Source: an uncultured Gammaproteobacteria bacterium (GTDB lineage: Bacteria > Pseudomonadota > Gammaproteobacteria > Poriferisulfidales > GCA-002705445). From it: DNA of 33,620 nucleotides. Where the stretch lies: assembly GCA_913050095.1 (NCBI GenBank), contig CAJXAV010000012.1, forward strand, positions 1-33,620. Direction: 5' to 3'. Shown here piece after piece: positions 22,465 to 33,423 of the stretch. Numbering within the stretch: the stretch's first letter is position 1; the number at the start of each line of letters is the position of its first letter. The notes beneath the pieces are model-generated. The model was not told the origin of the DNA. It made no database searches and was given only the letters and a program-made list of their open reading frames with translations. Both the position numbers and the translations under genes were made by a program.

Positions 22465-23721
22465 TTGAACAATATATCGACTGAAATTTTAATATTAATT
22501 TTAATTATTTTGTTTCTGCTTTCTGCTTTCTTTTCTGGATCAGAAACAGCATTGATGTCTATTAATAAATATAAAATGAGACATCAAGCAAAATTGAATA
22601 ATAAAGGCGCTAAAGCCGCAAAAAAACTACTTGAAAATCCAGACAAGATAATTGGTGTTATTCTATTAGGTAATAATCTTACAAATATTTTAATTACACA
22701 GATAGCAACTTTAATTTCTTTGAGACTTTACGGTGATATTGGTTTGGCTATTGCTACTGGTCTACTAACTATATTCATATTAATTTTTGCTGAACTAACT
22801 CCAAAAACTATTGGTGAAATGCATTCAGAAAAAATTGCATATTCCTCATCGCTACTATATAGGCCTATGCTAATAATTTTGTACCCTTTAGTATTTCTTA
22901 TTAATGTTATAGCAAATAGTATAATAAAAATGATGGGGCTAAAAGAGAATAAGTCAAGAGGCTCACTAACATCTGAAGAATTAAAAACTGTTTTAAACGA
23001 ATCTTCAATTAAATTTTCGAAACCACATTTAAAAATGCTTGAAAGCATAATTGATTTAGAAAAAGCTACAGTTGAAGATATTATGATTCCAAGAAGTGAT
23101 ATTTATGGAATAGATCTAGGGGAAGATATTGCAAGTGTAATAAATAATTTTAAAAAAACGCCTTATACAAGAATACCTGTTTATGAAGATAACATTGAAA
23201 ATTTACTTGGACTAATACATATAAAAAATATTACTCCAATGTTGGCAAGCAAAAGTATAAATGAAAACGAAATTAAAAAAATTATCAAGAAGCCTTATTA
23301 TATTGTTTCGGGTACTTCTTTGTATAGGCAATTGATAAATTTTCAAAATGAAAAAAGAAGAATAGGGTTCATTATTGACGAATATGGTGATATTCAAGGT
23401 CTAGTTACACTTGAGGACATACTTGAAGAAATTGTTGGCGATTTTACAAGTGACCCAGCCTCAAATGAAGAGATAATTTCTACAGATGATAAAAATATAT
23501 TTATCATAGATGGTGGAGTTCATATAAGGGAAATTAATCAAATATTAGATATTAATTTAATTTCTAAAGAAGCTAAAACTGTGAATGGTTTCATATTAGA
23601 ACATACAGAAAATTTACCACAAATCAATGATATAATAAAAATTCAAAGCCATACATTCAAGATAATAGAGAATCTTGATAATGCAGTAAAAACTGTGCAT
23701 TTAGAAATTAATAATGAATAA
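22465..23721 (+). CDS. corB: CNNM/CorB-type magnesium transporter (HlyC/CorC family)
   Basis: A membrane protein of the CNNM/CorB family linked to Mg2+ export or homeostasis. The 418 aa protein has a DUF21 transmembrane domain (about 1-170; SAFFSGSETALMSINKYKM, GNNLTNIL), a CBS pair (about 195-330; DIMIPRSDIYGIDL, IGFIIDEYGDIQGLVTLEDILEEIVGDF) and a C-terminal CorC_HlyC domain (about 345-418; REINQILDINL, TVNGFILE). I accept the TTG at 22465, because it gives MNNISTEILI, like E. coli YfjD MEHISTTTLI, and the nearest ATG (22452) hits a stop after three codons. It overlaps fdhD by 8 bases. Confidence 0.93.
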   Translation: MNNISTEILILILIILFLLSAFFSGSETALMSINKYKMRHQAKLNNKGAKAAKKLLENPDKIIGVILLGNNLTNILITQIATLISLRLYGDIGLAIATGLLTIFILIFAELTPKTIGEMHSEKIAYSSSLLYRPMLIILYPLVFLINVIANSIIKMMGLKENKSRGSLTSEELKTVLNESSIKFSKPHLKMLESIIDLEKATVEDIMIPRSDIYGIDLGEDIASVINNFKKTPYTRIPVYEDNIENLLGLIHIKNITPMLASKSINENEIKKIIKKPYYIVSGTSLYRQLINFQNEKRRIGFIIDEYGDIQGLVTLEDILEEIVGDFTSDPASNEEIISTDDKNIFIIDGGVHIREINQILDINLISKEAKTVNGFILEHTENLPQINDIIKIQSHTFKIIENLDNAVKTVHLEINNE

Positions 23722-24541
23722 AAAAGACTATAAAAATAAAACAATAAAAATATCAAATAATGGATTGTCGCCAACCAATAATATTTCAGTATTCAATCAC
23801 TCTAATGAAGAAATAGAATCTAAAGTTGCCGGTGAAATGCCACTTACGATAAAAATAAATGGAACTGAAATAATTACCCTAATGACTCTAGGCACAAAAC
23901 CTGAAGAACTTACTTTAGGATATTTAAGAAACCAAGCAATTATCGACAATATTAAGGATATTCTTAGTATTGAGGTAAATTGGTCTACAGGCGTAGCTAA
24001 CGTTAAAACAACTCATAAAGATATATCCGAAATCACAGATAAACTTAAAGATAAAACTGTAACTACAGGTTGTGGACAAGGCACAATATTTAGTTGTACT
24101 CTTGATAAATTATATGATGATTTATTACCTGATGTAAAAATAAAAAGATCTGAGATATTTGATTTATTAGCAAAAATAACAAAATTCAATGACATATATA
24201 AAGAGGCTGGTGCCGTCCATGGTTGCGCATTATGCAGTAAGAATAAAGTTATTGAATTCGTTGAAGATGTTGGTAGACATAATGCAGCTGATACGTTGTC
24301 TGGAATAATGTGGTTAAATGAATTGAATGGAAATGATATCATTTTTTATACAACGGGTAGATTGACATCTGAAATAATAATGAAAGCTAAGCATATGGGT
24401 ATACCAATTATAATTTCTAGATCAGGGGTAACTAATATGGGCGTTGAGCTAGCTAAAGATTTAAATATAACTATGATAGCAAGATCAAAACAACGATCTT
24501 TTTTAATATATAATAATAAAAAAAATATAATTTTTGATTAA
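23714..24541 (+). CDS. fdhD: FdhD-family sulfur carrier for formate dehydrogenase
   Basis: FdhD passes sulfur from IscS to the molybdenum cofactor of formate dehydrogenase. Family motifs are strong: VAGEMPLTIKING, EELTLGYLRNQ, GAVHGCALC, EDVGRHNAADTLSG and TTGRLTSEIIMKAKHMGIPIIISRSG. The length of 275 aa is normal. In the CxxC loop (Cys121/Cys124 in E. coli) only the first Cys is present: TTGCGQG (Cys120). The closest other cysteine is Cys128. No formate dehydrogenase gene is in the window. It overlaps corB and precedes xseB by 6 bases. Confidence 0.92.
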   Translation: MNKKDYKNKTIKISNNGLSPTNNISVFNHSNEEIESKVAGEMPLTIKINGTEIITLMTLGTKPEELTLGYLRNQAIIDNIKDILSIEVNWSTGVANVKTTHKDISEITDKLKDKTVTTGCGQGTIFSCTLDKLYDDLLPDVKIKRSEIFDLLAKITKFNDIYKEAGAVHGCALCSKNKVIEFVEDVGRHNAADTLSGIMWLNELNGNDIIFYTTGRLTSEIIMKAKHMGIPIIISRSGVTNMGVELAKDLNITMIARSKQRSFLIYNNKKNIIFD

Positions 24542-24547
24542 GCACTT

Positions 24548-24931
24548 ATGAAAAAAGAAAAAAAAAGAACATACAATGATATAATTAATGATCTCGAAAA
24601 CATTATTAAAAAATTAAGCGCTAAAAATATTCCGCTAGAGAATTCTATTAAACTTTATGAAGAAGGTATCAAAATTTCTAATGAAGCTGAGAAAGAATTA
24701 CTTCAAATTGAAAAAAACATCCATAAAACGAAAAAACCAAAAAAAAACTCTTTAAAAAAAATAAATATTGAAAAATCATTTGATGAAATTGAAAGTATTA
24801 TAGAAATGCTAGAAGATGAAGATATTGATATTGAAAAAGCAGCTAAATATCATGCAGAAGCATTAGATATAATTTTTGAAGTCGAGTCTTATTTAATAAA
24901 AGCTAAATCTATAATTAAAAAATATGAGTAA
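24548..24931 (+). CDS. xseB: Exodeoxyribonuclease VII small subunit, tandem-duplicated
   Basis: XseB is the small helical-hairpin subunit of exonuclease VII, normally ~60-80 aa and present in several copies around XseA. This 127 aa protein contains two XseB-like units. Unit 1 (about 9-60) has INDLENIIKKLSAKNIPLENSIKLYEEG. Unit 2 (about 74-124) has FDEIESIIEMLEDEDIDIEKAAKYH. A Lys-rich linker joins them. The units align without gaps over 47 residues with about 14 identities, counted by hand. Unit 1 is closer to the family. The position xseB-ispA-dxs is the canonical order, supporting the name. No internal stop separates the units. Confidence 0.88.
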   Translation: MKKEKKRTYNDIINDLENIIKKLSAKNIPLENSIKLYEEGIKISNEAEKELLQIEKNIHKTKKPKKNSLKKINIEKSFDEIESIIEMLEDEDIDIEKAAKYHAEALDIIFEVESYLIKAKSIIKKYE

Positions 24932-25826
24932 TGCAAATAAGGATTTTGTGGAATTTAAAAATAAATTCACACTGAGAATTCAAAATAATCTAGAGCAAAT
25001 TTTTGAACAATATGGTGAAAAGTCGTGTGGTTTAATTGAGCCTATGAAATATTCATCTCTAAATGGTAGCAAATACATAAGGTCCTTATTGATCTTTGCA
25101 ACAGGCCAAGCGTTAGATATAAATTCAAAATTATTAGATCAACCTGCTACTGCTATTGAATTAATTCATTCCTACACATTAATACATGACGACCTTCCTT
25201 GCATGGATGATGATGAAATTAGGCGTGGCGTGCCATCATGTCATATAGCATTTGGCGAATCCTCTGCCATATTAGCAGGCGATGCTCTTCAATCTTTAGC
25301 TTTTGAAATTTTAAGCAGCAAAAATCATGAAGAAATATCTGATGAAACCAGACTTAATTGGGTTAATTACCTTTCAGCATCTATTGGTGTTAATGGGGTT
25401 GCAGGTGGACAATACTTAGACCTGTCCATTAATAGCAAAAATGTTGAGTTAGACGAATTAAAAAAAATATATTATCTAAAAACAGCAAATTTAATAGCGC
25501 CATGCATAATGTTGCCTTATATGTTAGATAAAAAATACCCACTAAATTTTGATAAATTTTTACAATTTGGGTTAACATTAGGCTTATCTTTTCAAATCAA
25601 AGATGATTTATTAGGTTATACTAGTACATCTGATGTTTTGGGAAAAACAAAGAATAAAGATGAATTAAGGAATCAACCCAATTATGTAAATATACTTGGT
25701 GTTGAAAATACAACTGAACTATTAAAAAATAACCAAAGAGAAATGAGAGAAATTTTAGAAGAGATTGGTTTTAAAAATACAATATTATCAGAAATTGTTA
25801 GTTATATTTTTGATAGAAATTTTTGA
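24924..25826 (+). CDS. ispA: Farnesyl diphosphate synthase (short-chain polyprenyl synthase)
   Basis: Condenses IPP with DMAPP and GPP to make FPP for undecaprenyl and quinone side chains. At 300 aa it shows the first aspartate-rich motif in LIHDDLPCMDDDEIRRG, the GSKYIRSLL substrate loop, and GGQYLDLS. The second motif is FQIKDDLLG where the family has DDxxD (E. coli DDILD), so the last Asp is Gly; the following GKTKNKDE lysine/aspartate pattern is kept. It overlaps xseB by 8 bases and lies 10 bases before dxs, an MEP pathway cluster. Confidence 0.94.
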   Translation: MSNANKDFVEFKNKFTLRIQNNLEQIFEQYGEKSCGLIEPMKYSSLNGSKYIRSLLIFATGQALDINSKLLDQPATAIELIHSYTLIHDDLPCMDDDEIRRGVPSCHIAFGESSAILAGDALQSLAFEILSSKNHEEISDETRLNWVNYLSASIGVNGVAGGQYLDLSINSKNVELDELKKIYYLKTANLIAPCIMLPYMLDKKYPLNFDKFLQFGLTLGLSFQIKDDLLGYTSTSDVLGKTKNKDELRNQPNYVNILGVENTTELLKNNQREMREILEEIGFKNTILSEIVSYIFDRNF

Positions 25827-25836
25827 CAATTAAATT

Positions 25837-27729
25837 ATGAAATACGAGTTTTTAGATAAAATAAACGACCCATCTGACCTAAGAATATTATCTGTTAATG
25901 ATTTAAATATAGTTTCTGAAGAACTAAGACATTTTTTAATTGAAACTGTTTCTCAATGCGGCGGGCATTTTGGGGCAAGCTTAGGGGCTGTAGAATTAAC
26001 AGTTGCTCTTCATTATTCTTTTAATACGCCAGATGACAAATTAATATGGGATGTTGGGCATCAATGTTACGGGCATAAAGTTCTTACTGGTAGAAGAGAA
26101 GAACTTCATACGATAAGAAAAAAAAATGGGTTACATCCTTTCCCATCAAAAGACGAGAGTATTTATGATACTTTTGGTGTTGGACATTCAAGTACTTCTA
26201 TAAGTGCAGCTATTGGTATGGCTATTGCTTCTTCACACAAAAATGAAAATAAAAAAGTTGTAGCAATAATTGGTGATGGAGGACTAAGTGCAGGCATGGC
26301 CTTTGAAGCACTAAATCATATGGGCACTCTAAAAAATGATATTCTAGTTGTATTAAATGATAATGAAATGTCAATTTCTCCAAATGTTGGTGCAATGACT
26401 AATTACTTAACAAAAATATTATCAAGTAAAGCATATTCAACAGTTAAGGAGGGTAGTAAAAATATCTTAAAAAAAGTACCCCCCTCAAATTTGTTTCTCA
26501 CGAAAACAGAAAAACATATTAAAGGCTTATTGGCCCCTGGTATGCTATTTGAAGAAATGGGTATTAATTATTATGGACCAATTGATGGACACGATACTCA
26601 TTTTTTAATAAAAACTTTAAAAAACTTAAAAAAAATACCAGGGCCAAAACTTCTACATGTTATTACAAAAAAAGGTAAAGGATATTTGCCTGCAGAAACA
26701 GACCCAGTTAAATATCATGCTGTTCCAACTTTTGACACAGAGAAAGGGGTTGAGAGTAGTTCAAACAATAAAATCACATATACAAAGGTTTTTGATAATT
26801 GGATATGCGATTTGGCAGAAAAGGATCCGAGAATTTTTGCTATAACACCAGCAATGAAAGAAGGATCAGGACTAGTAAACTTTTCTAAAAAATTTCCAGA
26901 GAGATATATTGACGTTGGTATTGCAGAACAACATTCTGTCACCCTTGCCGCAGGCCTTGCTTGTGAAGGACAAAAACCTATAGTTTGTATATATTCTACC
27001 TTTTTACAAAGAGCATATGATCAATTGATCCATGATGTAGCATTACAAAATCTTGATGTTTTATTTGCAGTAGATAGAGCTGGATTTGTGGGAGCTGATG
27101 GGGGAACACATAGTGGCGTTTTTGATTTATCTTATCTAAGGTGTATTCCAAATATTTTAATTATGGCTCCAAGCAACGAAGAAGAATGTAAAAATATGTT
27201 GTATACAGGTTATCTCCATAATGGTCCTGCAGTTGTAAGATACCCAAGAGGCTCAGGTTTAGGTGTAACTGTAAGCAAAAATTCTCAGAACTATGAGATA
27301 GGAATATCAAATAAAATCAGAAAAGGCAAAAATATCATGATACTTTGCTTTGGATCGTTATTAGACATTTGTCTTGATGTTTCAAAAGAGCTTGATTGTT
27401 CGCTCGTAGATATGAGATTTATAAAACCAATAGACCAAGATATTATCTTACAATCAGCTGAAAAATATTCTTTAATTCTGACAGTGGAAGATAACACTGT
27501 TATGGGCGGGGCAGGAAGTGCAGTTAACGAGATTCTACTGAAAAACAATACTAATACAAAAGTTATAAATATTGGTGTTCCTGATAAGTTTTACAACCAT
27601 GCAACGAGAGAAGAGCAATTAGAGGCAAGTGATATATCAAAAGAAAGTATTATTTCTAAAATTAAAAAATGTTTAGAAAATAATGACTTGTATGATCCAA
27701 ATCAGTTTAGTAACATAAATAATACATAA
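25837..27729 (+). CDS. dxs: 1-deoxy-D-xylulose-5-phosphate synthase
   Basis: The TPP-dependent first step of the MEP isoprenoid pathway (pyruvate + glyceraldehyde 3-phosphate), also a precursor route for thiamine and pyridoxal phosphate. The 630 aa protein aligns across its length with E. coli Dxs. It has HFGASLGAVELTVALH (catalytic His), WDVGHQCYGHK, the TPP motif GDGGLSAGMAFEALNHMG...NDNEMS, the glutamate in VGIAEQHSVT, RAGFVGADGGTHSGVFDLSYLR and RYPRGSGLG. Joined to ispA upstream (10 bases) and folE2 downstream (19 bases). Confidence 0.97.
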   Translation: MKYEFLDKINDPSDLRILSVNDLNIVSEELRHFLIETVSQCGGHFGASLGAVELTVALHYSFNTPDDKLIWDVGHQCYGHKVLTGRREELHTIRKKNGLHPFPSKDESIYDTFGVGHSSTSISAAIGMAIASSHKNENKKVVAIIGDGGLSAGMAFEALNHMGTLKNDILVVLNDNEMSISPNVGAMTNYLTKILSSKAYSTVKEGSKNILKKVPPSNLFLTKTEKHIKGLLAPGMLFEEMGINYYGPIDGHDTHFLIKTLKNLKKIPGPKLLHVITKKGKGYLPAETDPVKYHAVPTFDTEKGVESSSNNKITYTKVFDNWICDLAEKDPRIFAITPAMKEGSGLVNFSKKFPERYIDVGIAEQHSVTLAAGLACEGQKPIVCIYSTFLQRAYDQLIHDVALQNLDVLFAVDRAGFVGADGGTHSGVFDLSYLRCIPNILIMAPSNEEECKNMLYTGYLHNGPAVVRYPRGSGLGVTVSKNSQNYEIGISNKIRKGKNIMILCFGSLLDICLDVSKELDCSLVDMRFIKPIDQDIILQSAEKYSLILTVEDNTVMGGAGSAVNEILLKNNTNTKVINIGVPDKFYNHATREEQLEASDISKESIISKIKKCLENNDLYDPNQFSNINNT

Positions 27730-32130: not shown

Positions 32131-33423
32131 ATGAAATATTCAAGGTCTGGCATTGCAACAACAAAAAGCATTCCCAAAGATGCAGAAGTTATAAGTCATA
32201 AATTGATGTTAAAGTCTGGCATGATAAAAAAACTAGCATCAGGTTTGTATACTTGGATGCCATTAGGCTTAAGAGTTTTAAAAAAAATTGAAAATATTAT
32301 AAGAGACGAAATGAATGAAGCCGGCGCTCTAGAAATCCTAATGCCTGCAGTTCAACCATCTGAACTGTGGAAGGAATCTGGAAGATGGGATAAATATGGT
32401 CCTGAGCTTCTTCGAATTATTGATAGACATGATAGAGAATTTTGCTTTGGTCCTACGCATGAAGAAATAATAACTGATATCGCCAGAAAAGATCTAAAAA
32501 GTTATAAACAGTTACCAATTATATACTACCAAATACAAACAAAATTTAGAGACGAAATAAGACCGAGGTTTGGAGTTATGAGAGCAAGAGAGTTTTTAAT
32601 GAAAGATGCATACTCGTTCCATGAAAATGAAGAATGTCTAAATGATACATACCAAAAGATGTTTCAAGCTTATAAAAATTGTTTTGATAAGATAGGCTTT
32701 GAATACAAAGTTGTAAATGCTGATAATGGTCAAATTGGCGGTAATGAATCTCATGAGTTCCATGTAATTGCAGATAATGGTGAGGATGAATTAATTTTTT
32801 CAGATTCTTCTGACTATGCAATTAACGCAGAACTATTTTCTGAACCACCGAAAGAAGGTGATAAATCTCCAGATGGTACTGGAAAAGTTAAGATTAAAAG
32901 AGGTATCGAAGTTGGGCATATATTCAAGCTTGGAGAAAGCTATTCAAAATCAATGGACGCCTCTATATCAAATAAAATTAATAAAAACACTACCATGATA
33001 ATGGGTTGTTATGGAATTGGTGTTTCAAGAATTGCAGCTGCCGCTATAGAACAATCAAATGATGAAAAAGGAATAATATGGCCAAAAGCAATATCCCCTT
33101 TTGAATTAACTATAGTGCCGATAGGATATAAAAAAAATGTGGCAATCTCTGAGTATACGGATAGCTTATATAAAGTTTTAAAACAAAAAGATATTGAAGT
33201 TTTGTTAGATGACAGAGATATCAGTCCAGGAAACATGTTCTCTGATTCTGATTTAATTGGAGTACCCTTCAAAATAATAATTGGCAAGAAATTTATCGAA
33301 AATGGCAGTATTGAATTTAAATGCAGGAATTTAGATAAAACTTATGCAATTGATGAAAATAAAAACTCTAAAACACCTACAGACAAGGTGCTTGAAGAAG
33401 TTATAAAGCTTATTAACATTTAA
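32131..33423 (+). CDS. proS: Prolyl-tRNA synthetase, E. coli-like but lacking the INS editing domain
   Basis: Charges tRNA-Pro. The protein follows the E. coli bacterial-type enzyme closely at both ends. It has DAEVISHKLMLKSGMIKKLA, motif 1 region YTWMPLGLRVLKK, motif 2 FRDEIRPRFGVMRAREFLMKDAYSF (about 139-163), GNESHEFHV, motif 3 GCYGIGVSRIAAAAIEQ (about 292-308) and a C-terminal anticodon-binding domain. It is 430 aa, against 572 in E. coli. The ~180-residue INS domain that hydrolyses Ala-tRNA-Pro is missing: DYAINAELFSEPPK joins directly to GDKSPDGTGKVKIKRGIEVGHIF, where E. coli has INS between the matching segments. The frame is uninterrupted, so this is a clean deletion, not a pseudogene. 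Confidence 0.97.
   Translation: MKYSRSGIATTKSIPKDAEVISHKLMLKSGMIKKLASGLYTWMPLGLRVLKKIENIIRDEMNEAGALEILMPAVQPSELWKESGRWDKYGPELLRIIDRHDREFCFGPTHEEIITDIARKDLKSYKQLPIIYYQIQTKFRDEIRPRFGVMRAREFLMKDAYSFHENEECLNDTYQKMFQAYKNCFDKIGFEYKVVNADNGQIGGNESHEFHVIADNGEDELIFSDSSDYAINAELFSEPPKEGDKSPDGTGKVKIKRGIEVGHIFKLGESYSKSMDASISNKINKNTTMIMGCYGIGVSRIAAAAIEQSNDEKGIIWPKAISPFELTIVPIGYKKNVAISEYTDSLYKVLKQKDIEVLLDDRDISPGNMFSDSDLIGVPFKIIIGKKFIENGSIEFKCRNLDKTYAIDENKNSKTPTDKVLEEVIKLINI

Follow-up and report, generated by a model that had tools for sequence, protein, structure and literature searches.

With both halves of its product scoring as exonuclease VII small subunits, the open reading frame at 24548-24931 of the window (the whole stretch of DNA that was analyzed, 33,620 nucleotides in length) was confirmed as a single gene encoding two XseB (Exonuc_VII_S) units in one chain. 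The reading that we favor, and consider fairly likely, is that the fused XseB is the small subunit of exonuclease VII and forms a covalent pair on the XseA rod, with two or three such chains per XseA. That both copies have been kept intact suggests an enzyme built from ready-made pairs. The tandem XseB is new as a form of a known subunit, and does not amount to a new system; it is apparently undescribed in the literature searched. The gene, its parts and its neighbors are listed in Table 1.

Table 1. Positions in the window of the tandem xseB gene, of the parts of its product and of adjacent genes
Feature	Position	Strand	Remarks
fdhD-like gene	23714..24541	+	directly upstream of xseB; named by resemblance
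tandem xseB	24548..24931	+	ATG start, 127 aa plus stop; the genome's sole xseB
N-terminal XseB unit	24572..24727	+	residues 9-60; PF02609 positions 1-52; canonical LYEEG segment retained
Lys-rich linker	24728..24766	+	residues 61-73; predicted disordered; relaxed constraint
C-terminal XseB unit	24767..24928	+	residues 74-127; PF02609 match 24770-24919
ispA (polyprenyl synthase)	24924..25826	+	usual xseB neighbor; named by resemblance
dxs (1-deoxyxylulose-5-phosphate synthase)	25837..27729	+	named by resemblance

When the whole genome was searched with PF02609 (Exonuc_VII_S; Pfam gathering cut-off 24 bits), two matches were returned, both inside this reading frame and both above the curated cut-off, namely one covering the N unit with 49.9 bits (E 3.9e-13) and one within the C unit with 26.3 bits (E 9e-6). 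Scored as separate proteins, the whole product, the N half and the C half reached 67.3, 50.9 and 27.0 bits, respectively, and all three pass. The stricter TIGR01280, the NCBIfam xseB equivalog model with a cut-off of 35 bits, accepted the whole protein (69.3 bits) and the N half (53.0 bits), and the C half alone, at 26.7 bits, fails it. A first-pass annotation, made from the letters of the sequence alone, had described two XseB-like units in one gene with a Lys-rich linker between them, and these searches bear it out on both units, the second of which does score as XseB when taken by itself; the Lys-rich stretch likewise lies where two such units would be joined.

The same annotation had counted, by hand, about 14 ungapped identities over 47 positions between the two units. 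The similarity that it saw is real, exceeding that of shuffled units; the register given by the profile yields 13 identities over 50 positions. Shuffled units share 5.5 +/- 2.1 identities, with 13 being reached by 0.2% of them, and the BLOSUM score of the N unit against the C unit was attained by 0 of 20,000 shuffles. Profile-profile comparison matched the C halves to ordinary single XseB with 95.7% probability (E 1e-8), the N halves to the same with 97.8%, and the N-half profile to the C-half profile with 92%, while the best of 30 column-shuffled C-half controls reached 0.48% against ordinary XseB. A frameshift, a misassembly or a pair of adjacent genes was ruled out as the source of the tandem, because the frame is single, open and uninterrupted in 12 independently assembled genomes.

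The predicted structure is of the XseB type in both halves. AlphaFold2 modeled the whole protein with a mean pLDDT of 82 and with helices at residues 9-23, 30-60, 74-88 and 95-126, which make two short-long hairpins of the XseB type, one per half, while linker residues 62-68 fell below pLDDT 50. The pTM of this model is low (0.43), and the relative placement of the two hairpins is therefore not given by it. Modeled alone, the C half reached pLDDT 92.7. The best PDB matches of the tandem model were the XseB chains of E. coli ExoVII (8txr) and Bordetella XseB (1vp7), and for the C half alone the top twelve PDB matches were all XseB chains, led by E. coli 8txr, with TM scores of 0.75-0.82 against the full-length 8txr chains (query-normalized, about 53 residues aligned). 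XseB chains took the top 12-13 ranks in Foldseek, with weak E-values from 0.03 upward; such modest values are expected because the hairpins are only 60 residues long, and it is the ranking that serves as evidence. The first-pass annotation had allowed that the second half might prove to be an unrelated coiled coil, whereas its predicted fold lies nearest to that of E. coli XseB.

The tandem xseB occupies the usual position of xseB, before ispA and dxs, and the start of ispA overlaps its stop by 8 bases. In the host family the gene order is hemX-like, corC-like, fdhD-like, xseB, ispA and dxs (named by resemblance); one contig (G010) is too short to include the hemX-like gene, and the remaining order is kept in all family members. 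No new partner gene was seen beside the tandem xseB among the neighboring genes.

The first-pass annotation had looked to relatives for the same duplication, and it is present in all 12 host-family genomes, 11 of them in the host genus and one (G011) in a second genus. The other eight genomes of the order, belonging to two other families, have a single XseB of about 90-100 aa, and no second in-frame XseB domain was found in the other genomes compared, down to the listed limit of E ~0.014. Among 369 gammaproteobacterial and 399 proteobacterial genomes, the tandem profile was matched over its full length by the host family only. A scan of genome_contigs, which rests on short peptide patterns and complements a systematic sampling of Pseudomonadota only, recovered the same family again, as 'Gammaproteobacteria bacterium' MAGs and 'uncultured Thiothrix sp.' genomes, the remaining matches being single XseB only. 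Two long matches from that scan (L122 and L138) were rejected as tandems, each being a single XseB gene. No tandem XseB was found in viral contigs. A partial XseB-like match of 23.9 bits, covering profile positions 1-21, lies at a contig edge in another genome (G101:C40:54-116), 2.4 kb upstream of a full xseB, and may be chance or a second copy.

In a tree of the halves together with single XseB, the N halves formed one clade (92% of bootstraps) and the C halves another (100%), each containing both genera, with the qualifications that the alignment is short and that G011 sits on a long branch. Since the N halves and the C halves each form one clade, the simplest reading of the sequences would be one fusion that predates the split of the two genera. 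The host family consists of small-genome bacteria that are probably marine, judging by sample names. Genome shrinkage is unsupported as the cause of the fusion, as other genomes of the class of 0.9-1.3 Mb (G050, G191, G194 and G300) have a single XseB. In the second genus the tandem xseB (L046) encodes 125 aa and its halves are strongly diverged, with 27.2 and 19.8 bits to PF02609; XseA is retained in this genome despite the diverged, long-branched XseB halves.

Within the host genus, the N halves are 63% identical, the C halves 66% and the linkers 43%, and pN/pS is 0.32 for the N half, 0.38 for the C half and 0.67 for the linker, values that are rough in themselves, synonymous sites being near saturation in many pairs, and of which the contrast between halves and linker is what counts. 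Both halves are under similar purifying selection, with the linker held more loosely. The C half is thus maintained, because its identity and pN/pS resemble those of the N half and not those of the linker. Counting only the strongly conserved columns of the XseB alignment, whose numbering is used here, both halves keep E17, E19 and L53; the N half alone keeps L18, E33, S35, E40, G42, L45 and E57; and the C half alone keeps E12, E26 and A56. The near-universal Glu-x-Gly of helix 2 is absent from the C half. The end of the C half, IESYLKKAKSxIKKYEQ, hardly varies between the window and its relatives and is better conserved than the corresponding part of the N half. This split of conserved features resembles a division of labor and may be taken as a lead. 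There was no excess of reciprocal loss between the halves, with three columns kept by both against about two expected under independence, and subfunctionalization as a statistical excess is unsupported, the reciprocal loss matching independent loss.

The partner subunit is also present. A single intact xseA is found on a different contig (L033, 454 aa, PF02601 283.8 bits); its product has the OB and catalytic parts as well as the rod and the C-terminal part, and it keeps the equivalents of E. coli XseA D155, R205, H238 and D241, which we take to be the residues needed for catalysis. XseB is bound by the coiled coil of XseA (PMC5684230), and each XseA carries four to six copies of it (PMC11077951). 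The XseA rod is 154 residues long in the host family against 153 in E. coli, and a shortening of XseA to offset the subunit fusion was rejected, the rod length being unchanged. A lag scan of the rod, used instead of a repeat model that would be circular for the copies on which it was trained (R2 and R3), gave a single sharp repeat of 45 residues, about 4 SD above other lags; the copies R2 and R3 are clear and the first is weak. The periodicity was found in the host family and, separately, in outgroups. The XseA binding platform therefore looks modular, and looks unchanged in the host family, because the rod has not been shortened and its periodicity is shared with outgroups. Cryo-EM work on the E. 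coli enzyme reportedly arrived at XseA4-XseB24, i.e., six XseB per XseA; the PDB entry for E. coli ExoVII lists 16 XseB chains.

Rods of other lengths were seen in other lineages. A rod of 194 residues, about 41 longer than 153, occurs in three XseA proteins of one family of the same class (L067, L170 and L172, in G021, G380 and G178), and one of 106 residues, about 47 shorter, occurs in L171 (G049). These lengths differ by approximately one 45-residue repeat more or less, and another XseA rod, of 128 residues, fits no whole repeat steps.

On the reading that we favor, an internal duplication would have turned the host xseB into a gene for two XseB hairpins that a flexible, Lys-rich linker of 13 residues connects, and the tandem protein would serve exonuclease VII as its small subunit. 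The two hairpins would occupy the helical XseA rod in the manner of two unlinked XseB molecules, and one polypeptide would be a pre-made XseB pair sheathing that rod. Single-stranded DNA would still be cut by XseA, and the linked halves would be free to diverge. We infer that both units bind XseA, that there is one tandem per XseA repeat, and hence the count in the holoenzyme: if XseB binds in pairs, one per 45-residue repeat, each tandem would supply one such pair, and an XseA that ordinarily carries four to six single XseB would carry two or three tandem chains in their place. The change in XseB number that the first-pass annotation had anticipated from a covalent dimer is of the same kind, and it would fit the unchanged XseA rod. 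Binding by the C half is uncertain because of its weaker XseB score (26.7 against 35 bits) and its loss of Glu-x-Gly. A more specific version, which we hold to be possible although doubtful, is that the halves are non-equivalent and take fixed places, one tandem per 45-residue repeat, in an ordered sheath of paired, specialized subunits among which features are divided (Glu12, Glu26 and Ala56 on the C half only; Ser35, Glu40 and Gly42 on the N half only).

The lost Glu-x-Gly might instead mean that the N half alone is the working XseB and that the C half has been recruited elsewhere, off the XseA rod, to another protein, to DNA or to a regulator. A flexible linker would allow it to act separately, and it has gained a near-invariant end of its own. 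The C half nevertheless continues to score as XseB, its predicted fold is that of XseB, it retains two invariant Glu and an invariant Ala that are missing from the N half, and no new partner gene adjoins it, so that we regard such recruitment as rather unlikely. The other suggestion of the first-pass annotation, that the second unit does something else, is the less likely one, because the halves are equally constrained and the fold is retained.

Purifying selection similar to that on the N half, together with the occurrence of the C half, free of stops and frameshifts, in every one of the 12 small genomes, argues against its being neutral baggage, i.e., a tolerated, decaying and unneeded extra copy. 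Its greater divergence from ordinary XseB and the poor conservation of both halves in the second genus point the other way, but we find this account very improbable. The tandem might also alter quaternary structure by bridging XseA rods, within a dimer or between holoenzymes, instead of occupying neighboring sites on a single rod. XseA reportedly pairs through its rods in the E. coli cryo-EM work, and a flexible linker and a model that leaves the hairpin arrangement unfixed would accommodate bridging; yet 13 residues is a short reach, and the length of the XseA rod gives no sign of a changed assembly, which makes bridging improbable in our estimation.

The tandem protein resembles ordinary XseB in its Exonuc_VII_S scores, its hairpin of a short and a long helix, its gene position before ispA and dxs, and the presence of XseA in the genome. 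It differs in that an ordinary XseB is one unit of about 60-100 aa, whereas the host-family protein has two units in 127 aa, with halves that are about 21% identical to each other and have lost different conserved residues. E. coli ExoVII supplies the nearest folds and an XseA rod of matching length, but its XseB chains are separate and identical, whereas a tandem chain would fill two sites. In V-type ATPases, the c subunit is doubled, with a fused repeat in a once-homomeric ring; it likewise arose by internal duplication and needs half as many chains for equal sites, although it is a different protein in a different assembly and offers a precedent for the evolutionary step only.

A natural covalent XseB pair would provide a handle on the role of the many XseB copies on XseA. 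Together with the 45-residue repeats, the tandem predicts that XseB sites are paired and that the rod is modular, and the rods of about 106, 153 and 194 residues predict different XseB counts per XseA. The tandem xseB would further illustrate cleanly how a repeated subunit, once fused, becomes free to specialize.

Elsewhere in the window, an open reading frame at 32131-33423 resembles prolyl-tRNA synthetase at only 430 aa and, by eye, apparently is without the insertion (editing) domain found between motifs 2 and 3 of E. coli ProRS.
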